Part shown: one piece after another, positions 17,345-56,765 of the stretch | Numbering within the stretch: the stretch's first letter is position 1 | Layout: each line of letters opens with the position of its first letter | NCBI GenBank assembly: GCA_009192285.1 | Contig: CM018604.1 | Span: forward strand, 620,001-684,000 | DNA length: 64,000 nt | Direction of reading: 5' to 3' | Source: Morchella semilibera | Lineage: Eukaryota; Ascomycota; Pezizomycetes; Pezizales; Morchellaceae | The notes under the pieces: generated by a model | The model's database searches: none | Told to the model about the DNA's origin: nothing | The model's input: the letters and a program-made list of their open reading frames with translations, nothing else | Translations under genes and position numbers: made by a program

Positions 17345-17368
17345 CTCTACCAGCCATGTAAATGAATC
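17345..17368 (+). repeat. Left TIR of element A
   Basis: Begins CTCTACCAGCC, the same 11 bp as the left end of element B. Immediately inside (17360-17381) is a palindrome AAATGAATC-TTTT-GATTCATTT. Confidence 0.8.
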
Positions 17369-17499
17369 TTTTGATTCATTTCCTCAGCAAACGAGTTTTT
17401 CGAAATGAATCTTTTGATTCCTTTTCGGGCTAGGCTTTTGTAAAAGGCACTCGGATTCATTTATTCATAGATAAATTTAAGGTTTCGTCGGGTATATAC

Positions 17500-20260
17500 C
17501 CTGTCTTTTCCCTATTTCGTGCTAGTGCGCGTCGTCATCTTATATTTGACATTATTTGATATTTTAAAATGCACATTTCCTATCTTCCGCGTCGTGGTGT
17601 AAATTATTTGTTGCGTTACTTGTTCCTTTATGTTTTTATGTGTCGATATATGTGTGTATTAAATGGATGATCGTGGTCATTTAGATTTCATTGAGTATGC
17701 AACACGGGTTTTTGTTGTATATGTGTTATGAAATGTGTTTATTTAATGGTAGTCTCTCTTTGTCCATTTGTCTCTCTTTTTTATCTAGTGTTTAAGCTAC
17801 TAATTCCCTGTTTTGTTGGCTCGTTGAGGTTAACGTCTGTTTTTCTGATGCATTAATGTATTCTATTCTTCATATACACTGTTCTCTGATTTATTGTTTT
17901 TGCCATTTCTTGTGTCATTTGCTCGTATATACCGTTTTTTGATATTTTGATGTGCACTTTATGCCGTGTATCCTTTTTTTGTTCCGTATTGTGATATTTT
18001 GATGTATGCTTTATATCGTGTATCCTTTTTCTGTCCCGTTTTTTGATATTTTGATGTGCATTTTATGCCGTATATCCTTTTTTTGTGTATTTTATTATCC
18101 TTTTTATTGTTTCTATTTGCTTGGCTCTCTGCCATTTGCCTTCTATCTCGTGTTGTCTGCTAGTGTGTTACATTTTTTGATGCTTTACTTTATGTTTTAC
18201 ATTGAGTACCATTTATATATTATATTTATTTGATCCTTTTTTCGTTTCGTTTCGTTTTTTTGTTGCGATTTTCTATATTGTGTCGTTTTATCTGATACTT
18301 CAATGGGTATTTTACACGATGTTACATTCTTTTACATTTTTCGTGTGTTTTTTCATATTATATACCCTCTTCGTAATGATATTTGATACCTTGCGATCTA
18401 TTTTGATTCCTTATTTGAGTATTTATTTGGTGTATACTTTTTTGGTGCATTTAGTCTCTCTTTTTTCTATGTCAATTATTTGATTATATATTAACGCACT
18501 GTAACATGCGGTGTGATTTGCTTTATTTGATGTTTTAATGTATTCTTTATTTAATGTACGCATTCTTTGATGTGTTTAATCACCCTCTTTTCTGTGTCGA
18601 TTATTTGATTATATATTATCGTATTTTATTTGATGTGTTAATGTATCCTTTATTTGATGTACGCTTTTTTTGATGTGTTTCGTCTCTTCATTTTGTGTGT
18701 CGGTTATTTGATTATATATTTTTACGTTGTCTTGCCGTAGTGCATGACAATGTGTTACTTTATATGATCTTTTGATCTACCCTTTTGTCTTTATCTGATA
18801 TGTTATTTCTGCCTTTTCGTGTTCTGGCCGTTCGTATTGGGTTTCGTCCATTTATTTGATTCGTTGATTTATCCTTTATGTTGTATATCATTTTTTTGTG
18901 TTATTCATCTATACATTTTATGTGTATTATTTCCGGCTATCCTTATTATGACTTAATATCACGCATTCTTTGATTTTTTGATTCACATTTTCTATTGTCT
19001 ATCAATTGTTTGTGTGTTTTAAATATCTTTTATTGTACTCTTTAAAGCTTTTGATAGCCCATACCGTATATAATCGTGCCCTTAACACATTATTATACAT
19101 TTTAGTTGTGTTTTTTATTTATTATTTTTTATCTGTCATTTTTTATCCTATTGATTTGCACTTTCGGATATAGCCTTCTGGTGGTACCGTTGTGTTTGTT
19201 CGTGCTGTTTCATTTATTGATACTTTATATACCTATTTTTTTTATATCATTTTACCTGTATATAGTTTTGCTTCCCGAGATCTCCTTATTCTATCCACAT
19301 ACCTTGCTAGTCCTACCGCATTGTATACCTATGTGTCCCTTTCTATTACACATTATCTGTGTACTATTTTATCTTGGTGCCTCGCGCGAGCTCGTTCGCG
19401 TCTTGCATGCACTCTTGCCGTATTTTTTGAGCGCATTGTTCGCGCATGGTATACGTATCAATTTATTGATACTTTATCATGCGATTGAATGTACCAGTGT
19501 TGTTGCATGAGATGGTTGCTGCTAGTGCTTCTTGGAGCTCAGTTAACGCATGAGTACTACATGTATATCCAATTTTATATGTATCATAATGTACACATAT
19601 ATTGTGACATTATGTATCTATTTTTATGAAACAATGTTCTTGCATTTTTCTTTGATATTTTAGTGTGGAATTTCCATGTCACCTGTTTAGTAGGTTATGG
19701 TCCGTGTTGTATGCGTATATGTGCCTATATGAATGTATTTAAAATACCGTTTACCTGATTCATTTTTATGCGTATATATTGCATACTTTTTTGGTGGTAA
19801 TTACTATTGTCTTAATTTGTCCATTTATCGACTCTATGCCATGTGATCTCTTAAGTGTTGTCTTAAGTGTTGTCTTCACAATCGTATTGGTGTACTATAT
19901 GCATTTACATATGTCATATTGTGTCCAATTATACGATCAATATTACCTATCCTTTTTTTATATTCATTTACGTTTCACTGTTGGCCGCTGAGTTATTTCT
20001 ACGTTACAAATACCATATTCAAATTATGTGTATTTTCTTGTCCATTATATTTACTCTTATTTGGCTATCCTTAAATTACAAATTTTGTTATTCATTTCTC
20101 TTCAGCATTGATTCACGTATTTCCATCTCTTACCAGTTGTGTATGCGCCTGGTACATGTACACGGCTTAGATGAAAAGTGTCATATAATGGCGGTGGTAT
20201 ATTGGTTAATTATATTACATGCTAAAACGAATACCAAATGTGTTATTTAATATGTGTTTA
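17500..20260. repeat. T-rich left subterminal region of element A
   Basis: About 2.8 kb with extreme T excess on the + strand and loosely repeated motifs such as TTTTGATATTTTGATGTG and (C/T)GTGTATCCTTTTT. Open frames here (for example 18006-18483 and 19106-19510) consist of hydrophobic low-complexity translation of T-rich DNA and are not genes. The opposite flank (26.9-28.1 kb) is purine-rich, so both flanks are pyrimidine-rich when read inward. Confidence 0.7.
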
Positions 20261-20535
20261 AAATAAATAATTAAATACTCCCAGCCGAATACTAGGTGTG
20301 AAGCCTATGTACCTATAGTATATATTAAACAGGTATAAAAATGGCTATATTAAATGACAACGTTAAATGTGTATATAAATGGGTATACAAATAAATGGAT
20401 ATATAAACGAGTACAAAAATGAGTATATATATACACATTTAATATAGGTCACTTCTTCGTTTCAATAGTCTCGCCGTTAATATTACGTGTTCAGAATGAA
20501 GAAAGACTCGTTGTACTATATTCATTGATGACTAA

Positions 20536-23500
20536 TCAAATAGTGACTATACTGGCATTATCAACTACCTCCTCCCAAGCGAATAGCTTCTTTGGCCAAA
20601 AACATGATGTTTTGGACACGTAAAACAATCTATTACGTGATTCCACAAATCCAACCAGCTCTTGTATATCCCTCAAATCAATGAACTCCTTGATAGAGTC
20701 TTTGATCTTATATGCCAGCTTTCTCTTCCGGATCCTACCAAACAAATGGCGCTGTACATATACAAGCAATTGTGTGGATTCTTCGCCAGGCACTTTATGG
20801 TTTAAATATAACAGTACTCTTCCGAAGTATGATATGTCTTGGTTAGTCTCTTCCCGTATAGTGTATCTGATATGAGAGTCATCCCGTTTTAACTGACTTG
20901 CATTCCCTCCGTCACGTCGGCAGTCCATATTAGACATCTTGGAACCTACGAGTTCGTACTCGAACTGATTATTGAACCCAATACCTGCCACTGCACGCCC
21001 CCATGTAGTGAAAACGGTATCAGGAGTCAATAGGCTTTTTATATCTTCATATCGGTGGTTCTCGATATAATAGACACGCAGATGAGCCCTTTCGTACTGC
21101 GTAAACCTTCGGTTCTTTCTGGGACGCATAAGGAGATAGTTTGGATATGTGTATATCTCAAATCTATCGCCTTCATCTAGATCGAACAAGAGTCTGCCGT
21201 GTGCATCTAGGGTATTATTCCTCTGCTTCATATTGTCTGGGATATTCGCAATATATGGAAGGAAGCGCATCCTCTCAGCTTCTAATATACCCAATGATAT
21301 ATTGCGATTGGGTGAAGACCGGCTGTGGACCATCGCCTTGATGAACCCGCACATCCTCTCCATAGCGTACTGATGGTATATCACAGTGGGGCCACACAAT
21401 CGCATCGACGTAGCCAGATGGAGCAAACCATGCACTTGTGTAGTGCAGCAAGATAGACGTTCCCTTTCATATCGATAGTACAGACGCTCATACTCTTTCA
21501 CAGCATGTATCATATCCCTCTCCATCTCTTGGATCTCGTGAGGATATAGAGAATACTGGCGCGCTTTCTCTGTGGCCAATGCTAGGTGGTGCCATTGCTG
21601 GTATTCCTCTTCCGGCAAGCGTCTGTTGAGCACGACGGGGGATATAATATGCATGAAATTCAATAACTCTGTGGCTTTATAACTGCCGTGATATTTACTA
21701 ATATCGCGTAGGGCCTTGCCAAATTGACTAGGTATCATTTTCCGTGATGATGAGATCTCCTTTCCGATCGCCGTCCATGTCTTTGTGGATAGCACATACC
21801 CTTCCCCACCAAACCCGCCGGCAGCTCTATCCCCTGGTCTGTTCTGCCTTTGTTCAAATATATTCATCCAATGGGCTATATATAACCGCGGTGTGTTCTC
21901 ATCCAATAGATGCATCACGTCTGGCGTGAAACACCATGGATATACGATGGATTTCAATTTAGAGAAAACAGGCTCCCCATTGGTCCCGATTATTTTTCCC
22001 CATGCGTAGTTCCCTCCCCTCTCCACCGCTTTGTGGTTGTCCCGTAGCTCTGAGTCCCTATAAACTGGGAGCCGATATGGGTCCCATTCACGTTCGGGAT
22101 AGTACATCTCTTTTTTTGATTGGCGCCTTCGTGTAGCTTGACTAGGCTGACTAGCATGTTCATCTTCTGGTAGGGGTGGAGGCGGCGGACGTAAAGGGCA
22201 GTAAACATGACCTGCGCTGACCCCATGAATCGAACAGAACCTACAACACCGATATGAATTGGGCCCTGCCAAGTTATCAGTCTCTCTATCGTTCACATGG
22301 AATTGGTAATGAAGAGAGTATCCACGTACCAGTCCATTTCATAAGCTTCGCCATCGCCATAGTATCGCCTGATACCAGCGCAATATGAGCCTTCAAAGTG
22401 AATACCTCTTTATTTAGCCCGTCCCATGCATCCACGCCTCGCTGCAACTCCGCAAACTCTTTCATCAGAGGTAACAAAAAGGATCCTATGTCCTTTGGGT
22501 TATTCGGTCCTGGAATTATACCAGATAGCATCATATGTTTTTTTAAAACACGCAGGTTTGGAGGCAGGTTGAGGTTAATCAATAAAAAAGGCCAGATATC
22601 AAAAACACCTATTTTGAAGAGTGAGAAGCCATCCGTAGTGAAAATGAACCCAACATCTCTTGGATCACGCCAAAGTCCTCGCTGTGTATACAGTTGCCGA
22701 CATATCTCACCACCCCAATAATCTGTAATCTTGCTGGGTCCTGGAGGCGTGCCGTCTGAGCCCTCGGGACTTCCAGACGCAGTCCAAGGAGCGTTGAGAT
22801 CAGCAGATTGCTTGTAATCCATGGTTTGCCGTACATACTCTGGGTCAGAATACAATAGGCGCAGACGATGAATCAACGGTATATAATCGAACGTTTTCCA
22901 CGGCTGTCCTTTGGGATTCAGGCGCGATGTTTCGCAAACAGGACATTTATCCATCTCCGGGAACGCAGCAAAGCAGACGCAGTTATTAGCACACACATCA
23001 TATCGGACATGGTATATCTGCGTGATATTTGCGATAACCCTACGGGTTCTACGTTCACGACATATATATTCCGACTTATCAACGCCTTCATTATCCATAA
23101 CAGCAAACTCCTTTATTGCTTCGATATAACGTTTGTGACTTTCATCCGAAACATTGCCCAACAGGCGTATTTGTAGCAGACGTGCCTGCCGTAATATACC
23201 TGGATCTATGTCGACATTGGGTATACTGGGATAAGGGAAGTTTTCATAGTCTGGTATAGCCCCATCGTTATCCTCAAAGTCGCTAAAACCATCGTCTTCG
23301 TATTCAGATTCTTCATCTTCTGCTACCGCTATATCTGAGAGAGAGTCGTTGGATCTAGTTTCGAACAGCGCTATTTCCTCAAAAGGATCAACCTGAGAAT
23401 CGTAATAGCTTTCACGATCAGACCCGACAGGTTCCATTTCTTGCTCCTCGTATTGATTTGGAAATGATGAATTTGATTGGACGCTTGATTGTACTCCGAT

Positions 23501-23998
23501 CATATCAGAGTTTAGATATTCCCAACTAGCATGTTCATTCCCATTTTGGGTATCATCGTATTGTAAGCTATCACCGTGGTTATTATATTCCTCTTCTAGT
23601 TCCTCTTCTTCTCCTCCTTCTTCTTCCTCTTCATTTTCTTGAATATCCCCATATTCCACTTGTGAAATGTCGGAATTATACTGAGACGGTTCTCTGCTGC
23701 GATATTCCACTTCTGACTCTCCGGAATCATACGGCCCCTATTAAAAAATATCAGCATGAGATAGTACATGTGCCGACATATATAATAATACATATGTACC
23801 CCCCCCCTCGTCCATATCAAATGGAGGAACAGAACTCGAAGTGATAGCATTCCTGCGATTCAACCAAGCCTGCTCCCTCTGATGTCTATACCATGTTTGC
23901 CGCTTCAAGTAATGCACTTGACCATTGTATTTGTCGCATCGACACTCCCTCTCCTCCCCTTTCTTCCATTTATTGTCGTTATTGCGTCGGCGTGGCAT
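20536..23998 (-). CDS. Tnp2/Transposase_21-like transposase of element A
   Basis: Three exons: 23998-23792, 23737-22330 and 22265-20536; 1114 residues, open throughout. The 54-nt intron has a GCTGAT branch; the 64-nt intron lies at WTG^PNSY. The N-terminus has a Cys motif (CRCDKYNGQVHYL then QTWYRHQREQAW). A long acidic region follows, then a second Cys cluster (VCANNCVCF...CPVC). The transposase core contains TDGFSLFKIGVFDIWPFLL, LSGIIPGPNNPKDIGSFL, MAKLMKWTG, RFCSIHG, YPWCFTPDVMHLLDENTPRL, TQVHGLLHL and YHQYAMERMCGFIK. This is the order seen in the Tnp2/TnpD family of CACTA-like elements with its following DUF4218-type region. The likely role is DDE cut-and-paste excision and integration at the CTCTACC ends. 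It starts 356 bp from the divergent accessory gene. Confidence 0.88.
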
Positions 23999-24354
23999 TA
24001 TTGGACCAAATTGATCGCGTACTATGTGATATACCGGTGCCGCACTAGTATATCTTGTTTGGGTCTAGATGCCAAGACTACAATAAACGAGCCCCACTGC
24101 GCTAATAATAATTGAGCCTCATTCTACTTATACGAAGGACACCGTTTCCAATCAACAGCCACCCCACCATCCAAATACTTATACTTATCAGATATCTACA
24201 ATACTCAATTATCAATACTATATCATTCAGAATCGAACCCGATAAAGGAAATAATAATCGTGACAATTGTATTCATCTCTGTGAATTCAAAACCTATCAT
24301 TTTCAATATACTGACGTTGGACACAAAAGAAAGAGACACAGTTCAAGAGCCGAA
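23999..24354. promoter_or_regulatory. Divergent intergenic promoter of element A
   Basis: 356 bp between the two start codons, AT-rich, with no open frame. The corresponding gap in element B is about 329 bp once its inserted retrotransposon is subtracted, so head-to-head spacing is conserved. Shared regulation is inferred from position. Confidence 0.6.
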
Positions 24355-26845
24355 ATGGCCAGCTTTCTGAAGAATTTGACCGATGAGCAAAGGAAAATTA
24401 TCAATGAATACAATAAGCTCAAACAATCAAATGTTAGTATCAAATGTTTATAATTGATAATATACGAAACAGAATCTGATGAATCGTAGGATGGAAATCA
24501 AAAGAAGAAAACTGCTGCATTTATGAGCAGTCCCAATACCATGCGTGCTGATTCTGAGGAAGGGATCTCTTCTGATGAAGGATCTGACCACGAGTCTGAC
24601 GATGACGATGATTCTGACGATGATGATCAAGAAGAAGATGATGATGACGATGGAATTGCCAGCGATGGAGAGAGCAAAACAATTGCTGAAGAAAATGTGG
24701 CTGAACTACTCGATGTTGCTGATCGTAGGCCTGTTTGGCGTCAATTGGGCTTCACTTCATACAGCAACCCAAAGCAAAAGGCCGAGTATTTGAAACTGCG
24801 TGCCCTGGCTCGTGCTGCATTGGCTGAGAAGCCATTCCCTTTTAAAGTGAGCATGAGATGGAGTAGCGTCAAAAACAAGTCCACTAGGGCGGCCTTAATA
24901 AAAAAGGTGCAGGTTGCCTTAAAGCCAAGAGAAATATCCGAAGAGGTAGCCCTAGCAATCATCCTATCTCTAACACACAACCGCCGAAGGAATCGGAACC
25001 GTCGAAAGAATAAAGAAATCAAGGATAATGGTGGGGTAGTCAAGAGAGGTCGGCCCAGGACCCACAGCAAATATACCAGCCACAGCAATACAAACACCAG
25101 AAACAGAGCTAAGAAAGTCCAGCCTCATCAGCAAACTCAACTTGTGACTGTAGTCTCCCAACAGTCTCCCAGGTCTCCTGAGAGTCTCCTGAGACCCCTG
25201 GATATTTTCTGAGTCTCCTGAGGCTCAGGAGACATTAGGAGACAAATGAAGTCTTGCTGATGCTGTTCAAGCAGATAGCCCATCCCCATCCCCATCCCCA
25301 TCCCTACGTCCACCTCCAGCTCCAGCTCCTAAACCAATAACAAAAAAACCCCCCCAGCTGGCTGTCACCCCTAGGCCAACGACTTCTGGAAAGACCGTCC
25401 CTACAAGGGCTGTACCCGATAGGCCCACTCAGAAAAGGACTATTCCAGCTAATGCCGCTACTAATAAACTAACTGCCGGTCCTCCAGGGACTAGAAAAAC
25501 CAGAAAGAATGTCGGAACGGTAGTCAATGTGGACCCTACACAAAACAGTCAGGAGCTCGAAACACAGGGTGATGACTATAGACAATACATAACACCATCA
25601 ATCCCATGGGAACCTACTCCACCATGTAACCAAGCAGGGAACTATAGCCCTTCAGGGTTCACACCCCAGATAGCCCAAAACTACTCTGTTTTTGAACATG
25701 CGACTGCACCTCCACCAACGCAAACCCAGGAGAGTGTAGCCACCCAAGAAGCTCCACCTGGTCCTATCTCATCAATTATCAGCAAAATCAAAGCAAAGGA
25801 CAGGTATAATATTAAGCGGGGTGGTAAAACAGTTGCCATGTCGAAAATTTGGACATATGCTGAATTCAGAAAGGTATAGGATGATTGCGATGTTTGGTAC
25901 CAATTCCCAAAAGGTCCCAAGAACCTACTAGATGACAAAGACAAATATACGAGGTTCTTGCAAATGTGCAAAGACAGTCCAAAGAGGGTATTGGCTACGG
26001 TGTGGAAGCATACAGATGACGACTTTATTGAATCGTCAGATGAACAACCACCTCTCAATAACCCCGTCAAGGCCAAGTTACAGAAGCAAAAAGGTGCCAA
26101 GGTTTCATCAACAGAGACGTCCAAAGTTATACCCTTCAAGGCTGCAGATAAATCCACCATGCGCGAGGAGTTGGTCTTAGAGGAATTCCCTAATAGAATG
26201 TTCTCGCAATTTGGTGACTTGAGCTCACAATACCCAGGGTCGGAATTCAGGACAATTATTGAGCCTGAAATACCAATTGTAGCAGAACCTCCGGTGCCCA
26301 AAACACCTCACAAGAAAGCTACATCGACATTGCAGTCAACTAGGCCAATGAGTGGAGCCAGAGGGGCACCAAAGATACAAATACCAATGGTGCCTGAGCG
26401 CCCTCAGCATGTCAATATGAGCCTTTCCGAGCTAATGGGGGTTACTTCGAGGCCACTCCGTGGTAATCCTACACAACCACAGGTCCAGAAACAGACAAAG
26501 GTCTCTAGCAGTGTTGGAGCACGTCAAATGCTCCCACCCCCGCGTCCTGTACACAACAATGCTACCGCCGCGCCGGTCTTGGGCAGGGTAGTGACTAGAA
26601 AGAGAGCTAGGGCGGAAAGCGAAAGCCAAAGCCAAAACGAACCACAGGGGCCACAACCACAGATGGCGCCAAAGTCTTCATCGGCACCACAGCGTCCGGT
26701 CATACAGGTTCCAGCAACCGTTCCTCGTAAAACTGGTAGAATGGATAACGGAAGGGCCAGGAAGGCACCGGGAATAGGAACGATCATTGAAGAAGAAGAG
26801 GACAGCAACGGGAAGAACAAGCGTCAAAGAGGCTACAGGGCTTGA
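24355..26845 (+). pseudogene. Accessory (AT-hook-like, TnpA-analogue candidate) gene of element A, broken
   Basis: Exon 1 is 24355-24432 (MASFLKNLTDEQRKII), intron 24433-24489, exon 2 from 24490. After a very acidic stretch comes a domain shared with the element B protein: LLDVADRRPVWRQLGF, then MRWSSVKNKSTRAALI and ALAIILSLTHNRRRNRNRRK, ending in an AT-hook core (KRGRPRT). A 137-bp MITE (25126-25262) plus a 2-bp duplication shifts the frame. Subtracting it on paper puts both sides in one frame. A second break is a TAG at 25877-25879 where element B has Trp, just before CDVWYQFPKG. The remainder to 26845 is open, Pro/Gln/basic-rich, and ends in an acidic/basic tail. As it stands only the N-terminal portion (to a stop at 25212) would be made. 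No known family; a DNA-binding role is inferred. Confidence 0.75.
25126..25262 (-). mobile_element. 137-bp MITE, copy 1
   Basis: Termini CATCAGCAAACT and AGTCTTGCTGATG form short TIRs. Target duplication CT/CT. Internally it is built of (A)GTCTCCTGAG and inverted CTCAGGAGAC motifs. It is inverted relative to copies 2 and 3 and differs from each at only a few positions. Confidence 0.9.
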
Positions 26846-28101
26846 TATACAGCTACAGTAAGTATTACACACGTGTGCTCTAAAAACGATACGTGGCTAA
26901 CAACTGAATGAACAGATGGATAGCTTAATATACAGCTACAAATTCACAAATAATGCGGTAAAGAAATGGAGGACTATTGAAGATGGAATTCAATATTTAA
27001 ATGGCAGGAAAAAAGATACTCGAAAACGGATTATAGCTACGAAGATATAATTGATCCAAATCATGATCAATTATATGATATGAAAATTGCAGATAAATGA
27101 AGTAAGGGAAATGGATCACGTTAAGTAAATAATGTAATTTAATTGGCTATTAAAAAGAGAGCGGAAAAATGACGGAAAAGTTGATAAAAAAAGGTATGAC
27201 GGAAAAGGGACTAGAAAAAAGGTCAGAAGAAAGGACTAGAGAAAGGGCTAGAAAAAGGACCAGGAAAAGTACTGGAAAAAGGATCAGAAAAGAGGATCAG
27301 AAAAAAGGGCTAGAAAAAAGCTCAATTTTAATAGCATAATAAAGAAAGGCTTCTACCTATTAACAGACGTGCAAATACCCCGATACATTTAAAACATACG
27401 CTATACTGATACATAAATTTACTTATAATTAATACCCACATCCATATTGAACCCATTGATCAACAGCTTTTTTAATGAATTAAGTCGACTATTAATTACT
27501 ACATTTTACATAACCAAAACCCGCTATATGGGAAACATGAATGAACAATACATATGTTCGATATAAAACCAAATCAACAAATGTCATTAACTATGTGTTT
27601 TCTCAACCATATTAATAAACATTAAACAATAACAATATACGACACATTTACAAAGACATACATGTAGTAGTAAAACTTCTCATTAAATGTACGTACCTGT
27701 AGATGTACTATCCTTTACCTACAAGAAAGACAAACATACAATAAAAGCGTGAATACATTACACATAATAATAATCAATAAATATGGTCACGTAATTACAC
27801 ACCTAGATATACCCATATACAGATATACAGATACAGATGTAATACCACGAATATATAAAAGGACCAATTAAAAAATATCAAAAAAAAAGGAACATACGAG
27901 TGAATACGCATATATATGTATAATTAACGCGATAGGGAAAAAGCACCATAAATGTTTCAAATGGAACTAAGGATTCATTTTTTGATTCGTTTACCCATAG
28001 AAAAAGGTGCCTTTTCCATCGGTTTTTGATCCCTTTAGAGAGCACCTTAAAAGTGATTCATTTCACATAGAAATATAATAAGCGAAAATGATGCTTTTTT
28101 T
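26846..28101. other. Right subterminal region of element A
   Basis: No gene. 27160-27330 is purine-rich with repeated GGACTAGAAAA/GGATCAGAAAA-like units. 27960-28110 holds several (G)GATTC(A/G)TTT motifs, echoing the left end. Confidence 0.6.
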
Positions 28102-28125
28102 GATTCGTTTATATAGTTGGTAGAG
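28102..28125 (-). repeat. Right TIR of element A
   Basis: Read on the minus strand it begins CTCTACCAACTATATAAACG. It differs from the left TIR at four of 24 positions, all transitions. GATTCATTT/GATTCGTTT motifs recur in the adjoining 170 bp. Confidence 0.8.
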
Positions 28126-31625: not shown

Positions 31626-31642
31626 GCCCATACAAACGGCAC

Positions 31643-43559: not shown

Positions 43560-43580
43560 GCCCTTGGAGGGGACCTGATC

Positions 43581-44214: not shown

Positions 44215-44482
44215 TCACCTTTGTCTCGATAAACAGTCTGGTGTAATGGAAAAAAAGAACAGATAGATGTTTCTACGACAAGAGAAGATGGGGAAGGATA
44301 GGTTTACTATGTGTAGATGTTGTTATATACCCCCACCCACCTCGGTGGTTCATCCGTAGATGTCAATCTGGCTTTTCATCTATGATCTCATATCACGCCA
44401 ACCTACCCCACCATCAACGTGTCACCTACCATACATATTCACTTCATACTTATAAAAAACTTTAAACATATCAATCACGATT

Positions 44483-47400
44483 ATGGCGGATGCAGCAAAC
44501 CCAGCACCATGGGCACATAAAGAGACACGACTCTGCCATTGTGGGATGTACAGAGGAGTGCCCCACCTTGTGACAAGAGCCGTCTGGTACAGACACAGGC
44601 GGCGACAAGCATGGCTTGAGCGACAAGCCACCCAGGAGCATATTCCACCAGTAGAGTTGGACGGGGAAATAGTAAGTACATCTACATTTGGTTAATGTAC
44701 TAGGGTGCAGGGGTAGATCTGTACTCGCTATCCACCATAAGAACCTGAAAATGCAAGTGACAAGGACAGGGATAATTTGTATGGAGAATCGTCTTGGCCA
44801 TACAAATGTTGGCGCCTGCGTTTTCAGGTTCTTATGGTGGATAGCGAGTAGATGCAACAGCAGGTGTCTACAGAGTTACCCCTGCAACCATGTTGCATCT
44901 ACATAATCCTAACTTTATACAGGTTGGTGCCTCCCATCCCGAAAGCGACCCCGATGCCTCCCGTCCCGAGAGCGAGCCCATGCCATCAGGAACCCCCACT
45001 TCTAATGATCAGGTATCTACATTACAATACATGTATAGTATGGTAGCTACTATAACACGATTAACTCTGTCCTGGTATAGGGAAACAGCCAAGGGCTAGG
45101 AGAAGCTTCACCCGTGTTTCACGACCCTGGACATATGGATTCACAAGATGCCTTTGTATACTACAACTTCGGGCATGTACAACAGCAAGTACAGGTTCAT
45201 GCCTCTCAGGAGCACCAACCCAGGCAGCCACCAAACCAGGAAACTGTGATAGCAGAGTCTGTTGTACCAGAGTCTGTTGTAGCAGAGTCTGTTGTACCAG
45301 AGTCTGTTGTACCAGAGTCGGTGGTCTCAGAGGGAGAATATACAATCAGTACATTGAACCACAGCCCCCACTACTCCATAATTAGGCAAGAGGAGGGGCA
45401 CGTGTCTTTGGGTGGGGAAGCACCGCCAGTTCATCAACGGACAGAACCGAGCAGATATGCCCTAAACATGGCATATATCAACCCAGTTCCTACAAACACG
45501 GCAGGCCAGAAGGAGAATGATAATTATAGTTCCCCTAGCAGCAGTGGGTCTAGTGCTCACGATATTCCTGATAACTCGCCTCTTGCATCCATTCATGGGG
45601 ATGTTGACGCTGATATATATACGTATAGAGATGACGACATTGATGCACTTTATGAGACTGTTAATGAGATTAACGAGCCTATCCAGAGTTCAAACTATTC
45701 CAATCCATACTATGAGGATGTCGAGGATGTCGAGGATGTCGAGGATGTCGAGGATATGCCCAGTTCTGATGATCCAGAGAGCAGCGGGGCGGAAGATGAG
45801 GTTGAGGATGACGAGGACCCACAAGTGCTGACAGAGTTCCCATACAGCATGATTCCGAATGTTGTTCTAGAACCTGCAATGATGAGACACCTCCGGTTAA
45901 TGAAGGTCAGAATGGATGGGAACGTGGCTCAGGACATACACATGAGATACATCCAAGCCGTCCAGGCCTTTGACAAGTCCGAGGTCTCAGTGACAGACGA
46001 GGCAGCAGCAAAGAGAGAGCTCGGCGTGATTACAGAGATATATCATGCTCGGTATGACGTGTGTCGAAACAATTGCATCTGCTACGTTGCCTTCCCAGAG
46101 GCTGATAGGTGCCACATATGCAATGCAGAGAGAAGAGATAGTAATGGAAAACCATACCGTACGTTTGACTATATACCCCTAATCCACAGGCTGCTGCTAC
46201 TCTATACAGACACTACATACATAAAGACTACAATGAGGTACAAGGAGTCTTTTGCAAACCAGGAGACCCCACACAACTCAGTGAGAGACTATTGGGACAG
46301 TGTCTTGTTCAACACGGTCAAGAATAACAGAGGCTTGTGGACCGATAACAGAGACGTCGGGTTCATATTCAGCACGGACGGCTTCTCTTTATTCAAGGCA
46401 CACGCCCATACTACTGCTTATTTTCAATTGAATCCATAACTGACCAGTATACTGCAACTAATAAATAGATTGGGCAATACGATGTCTGGCCACTGCTATT
46501 AATCAACTGCAACCTACCGCCGTCCGAGAGGGTCCTAAAAAAAAACTTAATTCTGTGCGGCATCATACCGGGGCCTGGTAATCCCAAGGACCTGGGGTCC
46601 TTCTTGAAGCCAATGATCGACGAATTCCTCATACTGCAAGTGGGGGTAAAGGCTTGGGACGGACTGCGAAAGGAGAAGTTTATACTGCGCGCTAATATAA
46701 CCTTAGTGGCAGGAGATACGGTTGCAATGGCTAAGTTGATGAAATGGACTGGTCCTAACAGCTTTCGATACTGTCGATTCTGTGCCATCTATGGTATCAG
46801 CGAGGGACACATATATTGTCCTCTGGAACCCCCATATGACCGTGAAGACGCTCTGGAGGCTAGGCGCAAGGGGAGAAGGACCCCAAAGAGGAATGCAAAC
46901 TTCCCCGAAAGGTCGTGGAACGCAGAGCATCTCCCGGTTTGGACCGACGCACAAGTGCGCGAGAACCAGAAAACAGTGGAAGAGACAATGGACATGCGAT
47001 GGGGCAAAATGATGGGGACCAATGGAGAGCCTGTCTTTAGCTCCCTCATGTCAGTGGTATACCCTTGGACGTTCACGCCAGACGTGATGCATCTGATGGA
47101 TGAAAACACACCTAGGTTATACCTGGCGCAATGGATGGGGGTGTTCCGGGACAAGGAACTAGCGCTCCGCGCAAAAATGGCCCAGGCGGATGTTGATGCT
47201 CTGCAAGTTGGGCCACCGCATACCCAATCGGAGGGTATGAGTCAGTCACAAGTGGAAGGACAGCAAGAGTCCCAACTTGAATCGCAATTTGAGTCTCAAC
47301 CCGATGGCCAGACAAACACACAGCAGGGTAGCACTCAGAGCCAGACCCAGGGTAAGCGGAGGAAACGTCGCAAAGGCATGCGGGTTAGCTTCAATGCTGA

Positions 47401-48783
47401 AATGGAAGGGGACTGCGCGCCATTGGAGGATGCGTTTATCTTGCCCAAGAGAGTATGGGACAAGATCGGAGAGGAAATTGTGGGCTCAAGGGTATCGATA
47501 CCAAGTGCGTTTGGCAAGGCTGTCCGAGATATCAAGTACCACGCAAGCTACAAAGCTGCAGAGCTGATGAACTTCATGCATCTGATATCGCCCATTGTAC
47601 TCAACCAACGGCTGCCTGATGAATACTACAACCACTGGCACCACTTTGTACTAGCCAGCGAGAAGACCCGGCGGTACCAGCTAAGCATGGAAGACATCGC
47701 TGAAATGGAACAAGATATGGTTCAGGCTGTGACTGAGTATGAGCGTCTATACTATCAGTACAAGCTCTCCAAGATCCGTAGCTGCACCACGCAAGTGCAT
47801 GGGCTGCTGCACCTGGGCATGGCAATGAGAGTCTGCGGCCCGAATCCGATATACCACCAGTACCCAATGGAGAGGACATGCGGAGCAATCAAGGCTATGT
47901 GCCACAGCCGATCGTCTACTAACCGTAATCTTTCGCTACAGCTGCTTGAGCGGGAGAGGCTTAGGTACCTGCCTTTGATTGCGTTGGTAGGTACATGTAT
48001 AAGGGTATGGGAACAGAATGGCTGTGCTTTTACTGACATGAATAGCTACCGCCTGGATTTAGTGAGACCGCCGAGAGACACCTGTTTGGACTGGGAGAGA
48101 AGGACAAGGTTGCCTACCCAGGAGAGTATCCGGACTGCCTCCTGATGGGCCCCAAGATCTCCCGGCGATTGAATCAGTACGAGCGGAACCACCTGAGGCA
48201 GTTCCACGCTGACGTGATAGGTCTACCAGTGAGGTCAAGAGAGATTGTGGAGAATCCATTGCTGTTTAGCGGTATTTTCAAGCTATGGGGTAGGGCAGTT
48301 GCGGGAAACGTGTTGAGCAATAGCAGCGAGTATGAAGTGGTAGGGTCGGCCATCTCCAACCCAAAGCCTGGTGTCTGCTCATCCCGCAGGAATGACTCAT
48401 GGGTTAGATACATATTAAGCGGCGATGAAGACAATGGCAGCGATGTCTCATACTTTGGCAAAGTAATTTTCTTCATGCCGTACGAGATACGGAATGACGA
48501 GAGACCTGAGGACGGGCCAGCGCGCTTCATGACGGCTTACATCCAGCGGGTGGAGGTGGGGAGAGTAAGGAAACTGAAGTTGATATACACAATCAGCAGA
48601 CAACAGCGGGTCCTCAAAGAGTTTATTGATCTGTCGGATGTGCAGGAATTGATAGGTCGCATTAGGTCGCGCGGGAGAGAGTTTTTAGTATCAAGAACGT
48701 CGTGCTTTTGGCCGAAGAAGGGTTTTGCTTGGCGGGAAATCATCGACAGCGAGAGACTTTTTAGTGGCTCTAACATGCAGTAA
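44483..48783 (+). CDS. Tnp2/Transposase_21-like transposase of element B
   Basis: Five exons (44483-44671, 44923-45012, 45081-46397, 46469-47986, 48046-48783), all in phase 0 and open; 1283 residues. The N-terminal Cys motif (CHCGMYRGVPHL, WYRHRRRQAW) matches element A, and the first intron lies at the corresponding place. Exon 3 has a PESVV/AESVV repeat, an acidic EDV repeat and the CRNNCICYVAF...CHIC cluster. The core then reads STDGFSLFK, YDVWPLLLINCNLPP, CGIIPGPGNPKDLGSFLKP, MAKLMKWTGPNSFRYCRFC, YPWTFTPDVMHLMDENTPRL, TQVHGLLHLGMAM and YHQYPMERTCGAIK, ending CFWPKKGFAW as in A. Intron 3 (46398-46468) begins GC rather than GT and is absent from A. Intron 1 carries a foldback insertion. The 3' LTR of a chromovirus ends 268 bp upstream in the same orientation and could influence its transcription. 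Confidence 0.88.
44704..44903. repeat. Nested foldback inside intron 1 of the element B transposase
   Basis: Inner arms 44724-44755 and 44817-44848 are 32 bp with one mismatch (containing CCATAAGAACCTGAAAA). Outer partial arms include GGTGCAGGGGTAG near 44705 and its inverted match near 44877, and GTAGATGCAAC at 44848-44858 with its complement at 44893-44903. The inner arms share AAGAACCTGAA and GTACTCG with the foldbacks at 63.3-63.6 kb. Confidence 0.8.
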
Positions 48784-49408
48784 CTCATAGTACTAATTAG
48801 GTACTAGCCGCGACTCCAAAGTTGTGGGCAATACTATAGGCAAAGTCGTAAGTAAAGTTATGTGATTTAGATTGTGTGTGGGATGGCGCAGGGCTAATAT
48901 ATCATAGCTAAAGTTGCAGATAAAATCGTAGCCAAAGTCGTAGAGAAGGTCGTTCCACACAAAAGCTATTATGCGAGTAGTTTGGCAAAAGAGGTTGTAA
49001 AATTGTATACTTAATCATAGATTTAATTGTCGAGGTTCAAACTAAACAAATCACAGCGAAAAAGAATATGTAATGTTGTCGACAAAAATGTTTGTAAAGT
49101 CGTTGGCATAGTCGTCGCGTATAAACCTGATTGTAGAATAAAGCCGTTAACAAAATCATCAGTAAACTCGTTATATTTATTTTAACTGTTTGCATATATA
49201 CTCGGTGGAGTTTTCATGTTTAATCGTTCATTAATGCGTTACTATAATCATTGCGAAAGTCGTTTAACGAACAAACGATACGGCTAAAGTATCGGATTGA
49301 CCATGGGTATACTCGTTGATTATTTCGCTTACAGAATCTTATGCCTGGCTAAGTAATCGCTGAAATCGTTGATCAAGTAATCAAGCAATTCGTTGACAAG
49401 AGGGCGGC

Positions 49409-50280
49409 GGTTTGACTAAGTTATCACTAAACTCGTTGACAAAGACATTGGGAATTTCGTTCTAGGCACTACGTAGTTTGACTAAGTTATCAATAAGCTC
49501 GTTGACAAAGACATAGGTAATTTCGTTCTAGGCACTACACGGTTTGACTAAGTTATCACTAAACTCGTTGACAAAGACATTGGGAATTTCGTTCTAGGCA
49601 CTACGCAGTTTGACTAAGTTATTAATAAGCTCGTTGACAAAGACGTGGGCAATATTGTTCATGGAACTGTATGGTTTGGCTTTCGTATTGAGAAAGTTGT
49701 CGAAAAAGACATAGGTAATTTCGTTCTAGGCACTACACAGTTTGGTTAAGTTATCACTAAACTCGTTGGTAAAGATATAGGCAATATCGTTCATGGAAAC
49801 ATACTATGTTGATAAACTCGTTGGCAAAGACATAGACAATTTCGTTCCAGGCACTACACTGTTTGGCTTTCGTGTTGATAAACTCATTGGCAAAGACATG
49901 GGCAATATCGTTCCAGGCACTACACTGTTTGGCTTTCGTGTTGATAAACTCGTTGGCAAAGACATAGGTAATTTCGTTCTAGGCACTACACAGTTTGGTT
50001 AAGTTATCACTAAACTCGTTGGCAAAGATATAGGCAATATCGTTCATGGAAACATACCGTGTTGATAAACTCGTTGGCAAAGACATAGGTAATTTCGTTC
50101 TAGGCACTACACAGTTTGGTTAAGTTATCACTAAACTCATTGGCAAAGACATGGGCAATATCGTTCATAGAACTGTACTGTTTGGCTTTAGTGTTAACAA
50201 AATCGTTGGTTATATAGTCAGATATTTCGTTCTAGGCACTATACAGTTTGGCTAAGTAATCACTAAACCGTTGGTAATGT
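49409..50280 (-). repeat. Right subterminal tandem array of element B, about 66-bp units
   Basis: About 14 direct repeats of 55-66 bp, for example GTTTGACTAAGTTATCACTA, AACTCGTTGACAAAGACAT, then TTTCGTTCTAGGCACTAC. On the minus strand each unit carries GCCAACGAGTTTA, which matches the ACCAACGACTTTA core of the left array in inverted orientation. Looser copies extend back to about 48830. No coding potential (the short frame at 49793-50002 is the repeat itself). Confidence 0.88.
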
Positions 50281-50496
50281 AACCAACTATTCCATTGAAT
50301 GAGAGGCAAACTCGTAGGCAATGTCGTTCCAGCGCCTATCGCGCGGTAAAGATACTAGGTGGGTAGCTGCTACACAAAGTGAGGGCTTGGCGAAATGAGA
50401 CTGCGATGCATTATGGATGCATTTCGGATGCAATAACCACCCGCTTATGGCAGGTTGCACGGATATGACGCATAATGCATCGCATAATGCATCACC

Positions 50497-51129
50497 TGTG
50501 ACGGAGTAACCTGACGCAAAGAAGAAGATGACAATGATGACGCAGAGGGACTCGAGGAGCACAGTGTACTCGACGAGGGGGCCGATGAAGACAGGGACAA
50601 CGTCAGGCAGGCACAAGCACAGGCACCGGCGAAGACAAAGGCAAGAGCAAGGGCACAAGAGCACAAAGCAGGGAGAGTGAGGACCGAAGGGACCTCAACG
50701 AGAACGATGAGGAATACTATGAGTTTCCTCTTGTCAGAGGATCGAGTCTTTGATACGAGAGGCTATGGCTTAGAAATAGGAGTAGATTCCTATGTACCGA
50801 GATAACAGGAAAACGAGACAGAGAGAAAAGAAAGAAAGAACTAAGGAAAACATCTATCTCGACTATTTAACACACCTCCTCCACTAGTCCCATATGACTC
50901 ACACCTCCGCTCATAGAACCTCATAGAAACCTGCTACTACCACACCCCGTAATCCTCCCCACCATCTCCGCTATTCTACATTACCAATCCATCACGCCAT
51001 CGAACCTCCCAGAATCTAATGACGACAGCCTCCACCTCGCACTCCCCGCTCTCGCTTAACATTTCCCTAACAACCACAACCGTACATCGCCTACCGAACT
51101 GTCGGGACAAATGCCAAGACGCCGGGACA
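50497..51129 (-). repeat. 3' LTR of chromovirus copy 2
   Basis: 633 bp; on the + strand it begins TGTGACGGAG and ends CGCCGGGACA. It appears identical to 56090-56722 by eye. Confidence 0.93.
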
Positions 51130-51150
51130 GATCAGGTCCCCCCCAAGGGC

Positions 51151-54100
51151 CTAGCTCCTGATAGGCCGAGGTTTCGAAGGATATTGGTCGTGGAATGCTT
51201 TCCTAATATTAGGACTATGCTCCAAATCACCCGAAGGTTGCCAGGATGGTTCTTCATATCCAACATATCTAACCAAGTACTCCACCCTTCGCCCTCTCTT
51301 CCGCGAATCCAATATCTCCGCTACTTCCCATTCAGTCTCTCCTTCAACTTCCACCGGTGGGGGTGGTTCAACAATTTGTCCGGGAACAGGATCTCCAACT
51401 GTCGGCGATAATAATGAAACATGAAATACCGGATGTATTTTCATAGAGGCAGGTAACTCCACCTCGTAGGCATAAGGGCTCACAATTCGTTTGATCGGGT
51501 AGGGACCAATTTGTTTCCAGTCAAGTTTTTTCGAGGGTCGTTTTGTCTCAATATTTCGAGTCGAGAGCCAGACAAAATCGCCAACCGCATATCGAGGTGC
51601 CGGGGTCCGGTGTAAGTTGGCCATCTCCTCCTGTATCTTCTGCGCCCTGAACATTTCACTTTTCAGAAAATCAAACACCTGGGACATCTCCCGTGCCAAC
51701 CCATTAGCCTGGTCCTCGTTTACCGTCTGTCCATGCTGTAAAGGTCCGAATGTCATCCTCGGGTGTCTCCCATAGTTAGCCTGAAAGGGGGACATATTAG
51801 TAGTTTCGGAGATGTGATTATTGGTAGCAAATTCAGCCAGAGGTAAAAAATCCACCCAGTTATCCTGTTGATATGATACATAACTTCGGAGGTACTGTTC
51901 CATAATCGCATTGGTCCTTTCTGTTTGTCCATCGGTCTGAGGATGAAATGCTGTGGAATAACGAGGGGCAATTTCCAGCCGTTCACAAAGAACTTTCCAA
52001 AATTCAGCAGTAAACTGTGTCCCTCGATCGGAAACAATAGTCTCCGGTAGCCCATGTAACTTCCATACCTGTTCCAGGTATAGACGAGACAGATCCCTGG
52101 CGTTAACATTCTCCATCGTAGGAATCAAATGCTTCATCTTTGTCAACCGATCCACCACTACTAGAATAGCATTAAATCCATGACTCTCCGGAAGTCCCGT
52201 TACAAAATCCATCGTGACATCCGTCCAGGGTCCTTTGGGCACCGATAGGGGGCGCAGTACTCCTTGTAGGGGATTATGATTCGTCTTACTTCGCCGACAG
52301 GTATGGCAATTCTGGACATAGCGGTCTGTATATTTCCGCATGGTCGGCCAATAATATTCCCGGCTGAGAAGTTCCAAAGTCTTTGATCGTCCAGGATGCC
52401 CAGCCGAAGGTTTATCGTGATACTCTCGTAGCAAATAGAGTTTGAGTTCGTTGAAATCAGGGACATAAAGCGTATTCCGATAAAGCAATAACCCCCCCTC
52501 GCTTTCCTTACACTCACCCAACGAAATCTCTTTCGATTGCCGAACGCCGTCCCGAAGCATGGATAAAATTTTGTTCGGAAAGCTATCGTACTGGTAAGCT
52601 TTGTTAAATAAATCAAGTACGGAAGACGATCCTTCAGCGGGTTCATTTAACAAAGAACCCGCTAACAAACTTATCTTTGTATCTAAATTTTCTTTCTTCA
52701 AAACCACCTGACTTTGTTGTTCCAATCTTTCGTCCCCTTCCTTCGGTAAATCTTTAGGCCTTCTGGTCAAGATATCGACCTTCCTTCCCTGTTTCCCGGG
52801 CCGATATTGAATAACAAAATTAAATCGAGACAAAAACTCCGCCCAACGAGTTTGCCGCCGATTCAGTAATTTGGTTGACATGAAGTATTCCAGATTACGA
52901 TGATCTGTGAGCACTTTGACTTGAAATTGAGCTGTCTCTAAGTGAGGTCTCCATTCCTCAAAACAGCGAATAATTGCCAGCAACTCTTTGTCGTAGATTT
53001 CATAATTACATTCCGCCGGCGAATGTGTCTTGGAAAAGAAAGCAACTGGGTGAAGTACTCCTTCATCATCCCGTTGTGACAATATTCCTGCCGACACATA
53101 GTCCGATGCGTCCGTCTCCACAATAAATTCCTTCTCAGGATCCGGGTGCATCAGCACTGGAGCGGTGGTAAAGGCAGTTTTGAGTTTTTGGAAAGCTTGC
53201 TCAACCCTCTGGGTCCACTCAAATCGTACATGTTTCTTCGTCAGGGCAGTCAAGGGCCGAGCCACTCGAGAGTAAGCATAGATAAAACGTCGATAAAAAT
53301 TAGCAAACCCAAGAAACTCTTGAACCTCCTTCACTGTCTTCGGCGCCTCCCAGTCCACAATTGTCTGTACCTTCGCAGGATCCATCTTCATTCCCCCAGG
53401 GGTCAAAATCATACCCAAATATTTTGTTTCTTGTACGCTAAATTCGCATTTCTCCGGTTTCAAATGAACCTCATTGGCTTCTAGGGCTTCCAGTACCTGT
53501 CGTACGTCCTGTTGATGTTGCTCCAGAGTTTCCGAATAAATAAGAATATCATCCAGATAAGCAGTAGCGCAACGGTCCAAAAAGGGGCGAAGGATATCAT
53601 TGATCCAACGTTGAAAGGTAGCAGGAGCATTGGTTAGACCAAAAGGCATCACCAAATATTCCCAATGTCCATAGCGAGTTCGGAAAGCCGTTTTCCACTC
53701 GTCCCCTTCTTTAATCCTAATCTGATTATAACCCCATCGTAGGTCTAGCTTGGTAAAATAATTAGCTCGGGCTAAGTTGGCCATTGTTTCTGGTGTAAGG
53801 GGAAGAGGATATCGATCCTTGACTGTAATAGCGTTTAGCTTTCGATAATCGACACACAAGCGTAAGGACCCATCGGCCTTCTTAACAAATAGCACCGGGG
53901 CACCAGCTGGAGAATTGCTAGACCTAAGGAATCCTTTCTGCAAATTATCGGCCAAATAATCCCTCAACGCCTTCAACTCTTCCCGTGACATGCTATACAT
54001 GGGACCAAAGGGTGGTACTGTTCCTTCCTGAAGTTTGATCTCATGGTCATAGGGGCGATGTGGTGGTAATCTAGAAGCATTGGTCTCATCAAACAGCTGT

Positions 54101-54788
54101 CGGAACCGCTGATAATCAATTGGAATCGTTCCATCAGGATTGGCCGGTATCTCCAATATTTTATTAACAGCATAGAGAGTGGTCGAATAAATTTGCACAG
54201 TGGGGTCTTGCGAAAGTTTCTTAAACGATCGAGGAGTAATTGCCGAAATATTTGTAACGGGCCTTTCTGGTGGTGAGGTTGAAATTCCTCGAGCAACAAT
54301 AGGTTTGCGGTTGGCTATACAATGTTCAAGGCACACTGACGATTGGAAGCGAATCTCGTTCCTCCCACTATCAATCAAAACTCCATGCTTCCTCAACCAA
54401 GGTATTCCCATCACAATCGGATAGTGTCCTAATTTCGTAACAAAAAAAGGACACTCCTCCACATGTCCATTAATCTCCAATTCCAACGTCACCTTCCTGG
54501 TCACCTTCCCAGACTCAATAGGCCTTCCATCAATCACATCAATCTCCCTCTCAGTTCTCAGATTTTTCATCTTTAATTCATGGCGGCGCACAAAGTCTTC
54601 ATCAATAAATGCATATCCCGACGCTCCAGTATCAATCAGGGCATAAGTGGGTACAATAGATTTTTATTTTTGTGAAATAGAACAAACTATAATCAATTGA
54701 TTCCCATCCATCTCCCCCTCTGATACTGAAAACGTTGAAATAGACACCTGAGAGAAAACCTTTGAAGGTCCCTGGGCTATGCCGCCTA
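51151..54788 (-). pseudogene. Pol of chromovirus copy 2, one premature stop
   Basis: A 1146-codon open stretch (54591-51151) carries RT (YLDDILIYS), RNase H (VETDASDYVSAG), integrase (HHCC, VSDRGTQF) and chromodomain without interruption. It shows what copy 1 looked like before its MITE. Upstream, in the protease region just before the DTGAS active-site block, a TAA stop lies at 54666-54664, within an A-rich run that differs from copy 1 by an A/T rearrangement (CAAAAATAAAAA versus CAAAATAAAAAA). The rest matches copy 1 closely. Confidence 0.88.
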
Positions 54789-56028
54789 GGCCAGGGACGA
54801 ATCTTTTAACTCCTCCTCTTCTGAAAACATCTCCTCCTCCTTTTCCTTCTTCTCCTTCTTCGCTTCCAGCAACGCTCCCCTCATTCTTGGTGCTGCCCTC
54901 CCTGAAGGCGAAAGCTTACAGTCTCTGACCAAATGTCCAACCCCCCCCGCAGTAATAGCAACGATTCTCCACACGACGTGCCTCCCTTTCTCTGGGGTCC
55001 GGGCGACGGTAACTATTAGACAAATCCATGGGAACAGCTCCCCCAGGAGTATAGGAAGGGTGGGCCGCTGGCGCAGCATTCTTCGGTGGTGGTTGGGGTG
55101 GTCCTCGTACGACTGGGGATGTTGCTGGTGCAACGGGGGGACGAGGAACAAAGGGACGCGGAACAGGAGCACTTGGAATCTGAAACCGAAATCTCCCCAT
55201 CCTGGCCTGTAGCGCCCGTTGCTTATTATCAAGACGTTGAAGAAGCAGCCCGCAGTCCTTAATCGTAGTTGGTGTTTCATTCTGAATCATCAGGGCCATT
55301 AGGTCCTGGTTAAGTCCTTCCAACAAACATTCAATCTTAGCCGCTTCGTTGAACTCAGAGTCGGCAGCATATCGCTGAAACTCTGCAAAGTACTCAGAAA
55401 AGGTGCGTTGGCGCTGCCTGATCTCTCTCAGATTTCGAGCAGCAGTGGCGGCGCGGTCTGGATCCCCAAAAGCATTATCCAAAATTTCAAAAAAACTCCG
55501 CCATGGAATCGAGAGCGATTCCTTCATCCGTAATATAAACTAAAAATTGATCCGCCGCCGGTCCTTCCAATCGAGAAATAGAATACGCAAGTTGTTGAGC
55601 CGCGGTAGGGAAGCGATCCAAATTAGCCGTGAGCTTAATCTGAAGTTGTCTCTGGAAAGTCCTGAGAGTCTTGCGATCGCCCCGGTATTTCTCTGGGTCG
55701 GGTAGCTTCTCGGATTTGGCTGACTTGGTTAAGTCGTCGTGGATCTCCTCTAAACCTCCTTTGACTCCTTCTTGCAGCTTCTTGATCTTAGTCCGTAGTC
55801 CCTGGATTTCTTTATGGAACTCGGCCCGGCCTTGTTCGGTTTCGGAGTGATAGGTGGTGATGTCGACCGCATATTGCTGGACCCCTCCGTGCGCTCTTTG
55901 GAGGAGGGCATACGCTTGCTTCGCTTCTTCCGTTGCGGCGGGGTCCACTTCAGGGTGAGCGACAAAGAACCCTTCGAGATCCGTATGGAGCTTTTGATAA
56001 TCAAATGCATTGGTAGCAGGGCGGTCAT
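54786..56028 (-). pseudogene. Gag of chromovirus copy 2, three single-base homopolymer breaks
   Basis: Relative to copy 1 there is one C fewer just after the start codon (near 56020), one T more at about 55495, where SMAEFF runs into a stop, and one G more in the zinc-knuckle region (near 54950). Each shifts frame within a homopolymer. Otherwise the Gag sequence is near identical, including the region that holds MITE copy 2 in the other element. The lesions may be genuine or artefacts of homopolymer miscalling. Confidence 0.85.
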
Positions 56029-56089
56029 GGTGAACTGTGGTGCGAGGAACTCGGACTGTGCTAGTCGAGTGAGGATGGTCTCGTTTTAG

Positions 56090-56722
56090 TGTGACGGAGT
56101 AACCTGACGCAAAGAAGAAGATGACAATGATGACGCAGAGGGACTCGAGGAGCACAGTGTACTCGACGAGGGGGCCGATGAAGACAGGGACAACGTCAGG
56201 CAGGCACAAGCACAGGCACCGGCGAAGACAAAGGCAAGAGCAAGGGCACAAGAGCACAAAGCAGGGAGAGTGAGGACCGAAGGGACCTCAACGAGAACGA
56301 TGAGGAATACTATGAGTTTCCTCTTGTCAGAGGATCGAGTCTTTGATACGAGAGGCTATGGCTTAGAAATAGGAGTAGATTCCTATGTACCGAGATAACA
56401 GGAAAACGAGACAGAGAGAAAAGAAAGAAAGAACTAAGGAAAACATCTATCTCGACTATTTAACACACCTCCTCCACTAGTCCCATATGACTCACACCTC
56501 CGCTCATAGAACCTCATAGAAACCTGCTACTACCACACCCCGTAATCCTCCCCACCATCTCCGCTATTCTACATTACCAATCCATCACGCCATCGAACCT
56601 CCCAGAATCTAATGACGACAGCCTCCACCTCGCACTCCCCGCTCTCGCTTAACATTTCCCTAACAACCACAACCGTACATCGCCTACCGAACTGTCGGGA
56701 CAAATGCCAAGACGCCGGGACA
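56090..56722 (-). repeat. 5' LTR of chromovirus copy 2
   Basis: 633 bp. It contains the presumed transcript-start decamer GTCTCGTTTT (minus strand, 56412-56403). The matching primer-binding site AAAACGAGAC is at 56087-56078, after a 2-nt CT spacer. Confidence 0.93.
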
Positions 56723-56728
56723 TCACCC

Positions 56729-56765
56729 TGATGCATTATGCGATGCATTTTCTGGGCTAGTAGAG
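56729..56765 (-). repeat. Right TIR of element B with half palindrome
   Basis: 56729-56749 is one 21-bp arm of a perfect palindrome; the other arm is at 50474-50494. Retrotransposon 2 sits between them. The terminal CTCTACTAGCCC (minus strand) ends at 56765, followed by TAA. Confidence 0.88.

Follow-up and report, generated by a model that had tools for sequence, protein, structure and literature searches.

What is the role of the second gene that accompanies the transposase gene in certain large fungal transposons? This question is raised by a 64,000-nt stretch of Morchella semilibera DNA (C2:620001-684000, hereafter the window), in which an initial annotation placed two diverged Tnp2-type transposons, denoted A and B, each with a head-to-head second gene, the partner, which was proposed to be a fungal counterpart of the plant En/Spm protein TnpA. 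The pairing of Tnp2 with a partner gene is wider than was noted for A and B and extends to nearly every CACTA-type element found here. We estimate, with a probability of roughly two in three, that these are two-gene CACTA/EnSpm elements in which the partner acts like TnpA, as an accessory protein that binds the subterminal repeats; kinship with TnpA is not implied.

Elements A and B in the window

The two elements and their genes have the following coordinates:

17345..28125: element A, CACTA/EnSpm-type transposon, 10,781 bp, CTCTACC ends, flanks TGA/AGA
20536..23998, minus strand: Tnp2 transposase gene of A (PF02992, E 7e-19, plus DUF4218; ATG at 23998)
24355..26845, plus strand: partner gene of A, broken (43% to partner B over query residues 69-220; ATG read)
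31590..56765: element B, CACTA/EnSpm-type transposon, 25,176 bp in total with two nested Gypsy elements, CTCTACCAGCCC/CTCTACTAGCCC ends, target-site duplication (TSD) TAA/TAA
34816..37643, minus strand: partner gene of B (long open reading frame 35913-37643, 576 amino acids, plus C-terminal frames; homologues P0001-P0003)
44483..48783, plus strand: Tnp2 transposase gene of B (PF02992, E 4e-16; ATG read)

Both elements start with CTCTACCAGCC, which in A lies at 17345, with the right end at 28125 reading CTCTACCAACT on the minus strand. The flanks of A agree at two of three positions, so that its TSD is imperfect. B runs from 31590 to 56765 (CTCTACTAGCC) with TAA read directly on either side, and measures about 12.4 kb without both Gypsy insertions. 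By itself, the terminal 11-mer is at chance level in the window (16 matches with up to two mismatches versus 12.3 expected); the ends are taken as real because the longer ends agree and because TSDs and further copies exist. With PF02992 in both elements, with their ends, and with a match between the two partners, the description of A and B as Tnp2-type transposons with head-to-head second genes holds. The spacing of about 330-356 bp given for the gene pairs was reproduced by measurement, the two ATGs lying 356 bp apart in A (at 23998 and 24355) and, with Gypsy 1 discounted, about 329 bp apart in B. Likewise, the two conserved blocks and the AT-hook-like GRP cores attributed to both partners are present, the cores of partner B being RKGRPP and RRPGRPKGSLNKKK. 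Partner A is damaged by an in-frame stop codon (25877-25879) and by an insert of 137-140 bp, and the C-terminal part of partner B contains a frame change near 35418-35445, either a frameshift or an unrecognised intron.

Pairing of Tnp2 with a partner gene across the genome

The genome comprises 56.76 Mb in 23 contigs. Partner B has matches at four places only, namely A, B and two further elements, C (on C23) and D (on C4), and each of them lies head-to-head with Tnp2:

C23:705110-716506: element C, TSD TGA/TGA
C4:339799-350012: element D, starting with CACTACC, minus-strand end CTCTACA, TSD ACG/ACG

The partner of C (L016:482-2383) is an open frame of 634 amino acids. Altogether, the genome has 25 Tnp2 places including A, B, C and D, all above the PF02992 cut-off, one of them only with neighbours in frame. 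In eight of eight Tnp2 sequences the TDG, CxxC, HxxxH and MER blocks are invariant, the second acidic residue lying outside the blocks viewed; the assignment of these motifs is our own, with the names of the DDE residues and of the C(2)C and H(3-4)H motifs as they appear in passages of PMC12730594. Among the open reading frames around seven other Tnp2 places there is a second gene of similar layout, that is, a block with a basic end, followed by a second block in which a W is conserved and then often by a GRP core. A profile of the partners of A-D had no match among 58 open reading frames around these seven places, and these partners, termed E-type, were therefore first recognised by eye. Four E-type queries placed a partner-like gene next to 19 Tnp2 places besides A-D. 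Thus, a partner-like gene adjoins 23 of the 25 Tnp2 places, in 14 cases head-to-head and in nine cases downstream on the same strand, with gaps of 2.0-3.8 kb except for B (8.8 kb, with Gypsy 1 intervening). With 29.5 and 28.4 bits, the two Tnp2 places that lack a partner score lowest of all Tnp2 matches.

Viewed from the partner side, for which the adjacency to Tnp2 was to be checked, 23 of the 25 partner places in this genome adjoin Tnp2. The exceptions are short partner fragments (C17:93612-93911 and C17:530652-530876) for which the nearest listed Tnp2 is farther away than about 20 kb. The regions within 9 kb of a Tnp2 place make up less than 1% of the genome. In three cases, Tnp2 occurs at matching positions of C21 and C22, and the one case compared by sequence was 99.0-99.6% identical over 20 kb. 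Because these positions coincide, the number of independent places with a partner is about 20 of 22. Matches at nearly equal coordinates on C21/C22, and also on C9/C10 and C12/C13, suggest that the assembly contains both haplotypes of some chromosomes.

Both genes are enclosed within the bounded elements B (TAA), C (TGA) and D (ACG), which have CACTA-like ends and perfect 3-bp TSDs. The E8 family (E7/E8/E12) was sampled in three copies that are 99.7-99.8% identical over 9.36 kb and lie at different sites, again with CACTA-like ends and perfect 3-bp TSDs (ACT, ACT and AGG); each copy holds both genes, with the Tnp2 frame broken in one. The ends of E2 (TTGC), E6 (GTTG) and E10 (AATA) also enclose both genes and are flanked by 4-bp TSDs, those of E10 having tied alternatives inside its repeats. 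A search for 3-bp TSDs yielded none for E2 and E6 and just pairs inside repeats for E10; a repeat search likewise yielded none. Short derivatives were found as well. There are 20 other places with the terminal stretch of B (up to 143 bp) and 14 with the first 53 bp or less of C, haplotype pairs being uncollapsed in both counts. Of eight such recurrences sampled, five are bounded non-coding derivatives, 402-456 bp long, that have ends of the B or C type and perfect 3-bp TSDs; at the remaining three places no convincing right end was found. As the five derivatives lack both genes and yet are bounded by TSDs, something moved them in trans.

The two genes also group in parallel. In the Tnp2 tree of eight families, A-D are set apart from E2, E6, E8 and E10 (100/100), with the pairs B+C, E2+E6 and E8+E10. 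Tnp2 identities are 68% between A and D, 71% between B and C and 53-59% for the cross pairs; the corresponding values for block 1 of the partner are 65%, 65% and 44-51%. The tree of partner block 1 unites B, C and P0001 in a clade at 99.8/100, and the tree of 13 E-type partners splits five head-to-head families from eight same-strand ones at 100/100. Since both genes group alike (B+C, A+D, and the classes of arrangement), the genes and their arrangement seem to have travelled together, a comparison that covers Tnp2 of A-D and of four of the 13 E-type loci.

For the partner itself the initial annotation knew of no named family, and the databases agree. Its databank relatives are three, P0001-P0003, of which P0002 is a Morchella importuna protein that is 54% identical over 66% of the partner query. 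A Pfam scan of the partners of A, B, C, D, E2, E6 and E10 and of P0003 gave nothing over cut-off and a few weak matches below it for A-D; AT_hook exceeded the cut-off in the E8 partner, the sole one among those scanned. This partner lies at C4:2664374-2665813 and in further exons. NCBIfam had no match for the partners of B and C and two E-type partners, and sequence profile searches of the PDB with the partner gave nothing significant (best E 0.077 and 0.18). AT-hook-like cores, that is, GRP in a basic context, are present in 13 of 17 partners. The pattern counted 14, from which L037 was dropped, its sole in-frame match not being AT-hook-like; the core of E6 is found in a short frame that follows the listed open reading frame. 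The antisense control of the pattern gave five matches versus 49.

For the E-type alignment, 13 of the 19 loci were used after removal of five near-duplicates and of the broken C17:483k, and both blocks are common to the 13 aligned partners. In genome searches no E-type query recovered the partners of A-D, and partner B recovered no E-type gene; a protein search with the E-type alignment (A2) returned 0 of 5691 candidates at E values up to 1. When the cut-out blocks were compared with the 13 E-type sequences, each block beat 60 of 60 column shuffles (19.1 versus at most 15.9, and 22.1 versus at most 17.2), and mismatched-block controls scored low (13.9 and 10.0). From the shared layout, the parallel groupings and these modest profile scores, the A-D and E-type partners are likely to be homologous members of one old family. 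Our impression, unproven, is that block 2 is ubiquitin-like or PB1-like and that block 1 is helical.

Subterminal repeats and the role of the partner

The subterminal regions of B contain two tandem arrays, identified with Tandem Repeats Finder:

32538..33623: array with a 65-bp unit in the left subterminal region of B
49410..50274: array with a 66-bp unit in the right subterminal region of B, in opposite orientation to the left one

The motif AYGANTTT points inward 27 times and outward twice in the left region of B, and 18 times and not at all in the right region, which amounts to 45 versus 2. In C, there are 45 inward and one outward occurrences, and in both elements the motifs are often 65-66 bp apart. 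None of 200 shuffles reached the top 7- and 8-mers that the two ends of B, and likewise those of C, have in common. The other families have motifs of their own. In E8, ACTGTTTA occurs in 34 copies in 1.4 kb of subterminal DNA, often as inverted pairs, and not once in the genes or the fetched flanks; the candidate binding site of the E8 type would carry TAAACAGT, in pairs. Within 3-kb flanks on both sides there are 30 copies of GTGGTTTA in E2, 40 of AGTGTTTA in E6 and 15 of TGTGTAAA in E10, each of the three motifs exceeding 100 of 100 shuffles. Two-sided subterminal repeats beyond all shuffles are thus present in B, C, E2, E6, E8 and E10, six of eight families examined. Several of the subterminal motifs end in TTTA. 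In addition, ATGNATC lies near the tips of A-D and of all five bounded derivatives.

These features are best explained by the following sequence of events. Tnp2, as a DDE transposase, would cut at the CTCTACC/CACTA-like ends and leave a short target duplication, as is expected from its family. The partner, with its basic-ended block 1, its block 2 and usually an AT-hook core, would bind the many copies of the subterminal motif of its own element, join the two ends and/or recruit Tnp2, and would thereby help to set which ends a given transposase moves. The AT-hook-like cores would suit an AT-rich half-site. We infer DNA binding by the partner, synapsis of the ends and a requirement for the partner in transposition.

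Several observations weigh against this reading. The motifs were picked after looking, and AYGANTTT was chosen from B and C. The repeat of A is weak, with 9 of 200 shuffles reaching it for 8-mers and 65 of 200 for 7-mers, and D has no repeat beyond chance (174 of 200 for 8-mers and 20 of 200 for 7-mers). The five bounded derivatives retain ATGNATC but few or no motifs of the long arrays. Hence, the long arrays may be dispensable and ATGNATC the minimal site. Regarding the protein, four of the 17 partners have no convincing AT-hook core in the stretch examined. A whole-length profile comparison of B, C, D, P0001 and P0003 with four E-type sequences reached 83.7% for block 2 only; of the cut-out blocks compared with four E-type sequences, neither beat 100 shuffles; and the hhalign probability for the comparisons with 13 sequences is just 3% and 14%. 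The proposal of a fungal TnpA counterpart is therefore borne out in part: it agrees with a partner that matches no known family and adjoins Tnp2 and with the repeats of six families, within limits set by A, D and the derivatives.

A tentative extension of the two-gene reading is possible. One ancient partner family could have been with Tnp2 since before the two deep Tnp2 clades split, and its site could be composite, with a near-constant TTTA half, perhaps bound by the AT-hook, and a variable, family-specific half (ACTG, AGTG, GTGG or AYGAN). Protein and site would then co-evolve and constitute a readable specificity code of a eukaryotic transposon.

Binding to the subterminal repeats might instead serve mainly to counteract silencing of the element rather than to form a cutting complex, which we regard as unlikely. 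VANC proteins of plant VANDAL elements are such anti-silencing factors. The same linkage, family-specific motifs and AT-hook cores would be expected in that case, and transposons are heavily methylated in a related fungus, Tuber melanosporum, according to passages of PMC12730594. However, the close pairing with the transposase and the non-coding derivatives that have moved fit a transposition factor at least equally well, and the partner has no enzyme domain over cut-off.

Still less probable is a partner that acts as an adaptor of the transposase, through nuclear import or protein contact, while Tnp2 itself reads the ends and the arrays are spacers or promoter repeats. In Harbinger elements, a Myb-like second protein has such an adaptor role. 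An adaptor would account for the scarcity of long-array motifs in the five 402-456 bp derivatives and for the array of D being within the shuffle range, and Nuwa, of the Harbinger superfamily, also pairs its transposase with a Myb/SANT DNA-binding protein (passages of PMC12730594). However, the arrays are family-specific, and they resemble protein binding sites in pointing inward in B and C and in forming inverted pairs in E8.

Finally, while the function of the partner is unproven, a captured host gene or passenger with no part in movement is very improbable, as 23 of 25 partner places adjoin Tnp2, 17 diverged partners have remained beside it and group as Tnp2 does where compared, and no host family matches the partners scanned.

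Known systems and further insertions in the window

Maize En/Spm (TnpD and TnpA) and snapdragon Tam1 (Tnp2 and Tnp1) share with the fungal elements a Tnp2-family transposase, CACTA-like ends, a 3-bp TSD, subterminal repeats and a second protein made by the element. To our knowledge, plants are the only organisms in which the two-protein mechanism of En/Spm has been worked out, and comparing the second protein across elements is difficult there. The plant proteins are encoded by exons of one alternatively spliced transcript, whereas the fungal second protein, as read from DNA alone, has its own frames at a separate and often divergent position; by comparison with Pfam models, it matches no second-protein model. 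In maize, TNPA recognises the subterminal repeats, and neither TNPA nor TNPD is dispensable (passages of PMC2613891). The same source notes little similarity between the plant proteins TNPA and TNP1, whereas the layout of the fungal partner recurs across families.

Fungal EnSpm, Plavaka and ESTA elements (Kojima 2025, PMC12730594) belong to the same broad clade, and EnSpm is given there with CAC..GTG ends and 3-bp TSDs; however, the topic of that study is a TET/JBP gene as cargo, and a DNA-binding partner of fungal EnSpm is absent from its abstract and the pertinent passages. SmTRC1/TRC elements likewise have a Transposase_21 domain outside plants, with fungal homologues named, but they differ by CCC ends, 2-bp repeats and several proteins made by alternative splicing, and no separate partner gene is described in passages of PMC1636069. 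CNIRT6 of Cryptococcus is an active fungal CACTA-type element, but with one transposase gene and no partner described in passages of PMC12810828. In the titles and abstract openings retrieved from the open-access literature, a DNA-binding partner gene is not mentioned for fungal CACTA elements; an earlier record is possible in subscription papers, supplements or Repbase, which are outside this scope. With 17 diverged partner sequences from one fungal genome and a candidate binding site in six of the eight families examined, TnpA-like function and co-evolution with the ends become directly testable outside plants, and annotators gain a recognisable mark for fungal genes that are now without a name.

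The following insertions lie within A and B:

37710..44214, plus strand: Gypsy long terminal repeat (LTR) retrotransposon 1, nested in B between its two genes (LTRs, open reading frames; TSD TCACC)
50497..56722, minus strand: Gypsy LTR retrotransposon 2, inserted in B within its right subterminal region (TSD TCACC)
25123..25262: insert in partner A resembling a miniature inverted-repeat transposable element (MITE), about 137-140 bp, ends CATCAGCAA..TTGCTGATG

TCACC is the 5-bp target of both nested Gypsy elements, which are in opposite orientations (37705-37709 and 44215-44219; 50492-50496 and 56723-56727). The MITE-like repeat occurs also twice in Gypsy 1 (39387-39530 and 41218-41361) and not in Gypsy 2. 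Counting itself, the repeat has at least 41 matches in the whole genome, with 40 of 965 candidates scored. Because of these many matches, several of them at 100%, it looks like a young and abundant repeat. An intron as the explanation of the insert in partner A was ruled out by its inverted-repeat ends CATCAGCAA/TTGCTGATG, the lack of terminal GT..AG and its identity as a high-copy repeat. A hairpin MITE-like insert, with a 42-nt inverted repeat, lies at 44722-44850 in the 5' part of the B Tnp2 gene and is apparently intronic; further hairpins of the window are at 63277-63392 and 63585-63715. Just outside A, at 15607-17173, there is a Tc1/mariner-like element, identified by eye. Its inverted ends of 43 bp are perfect, and its transposase frames overlap and seem to be disrupted.

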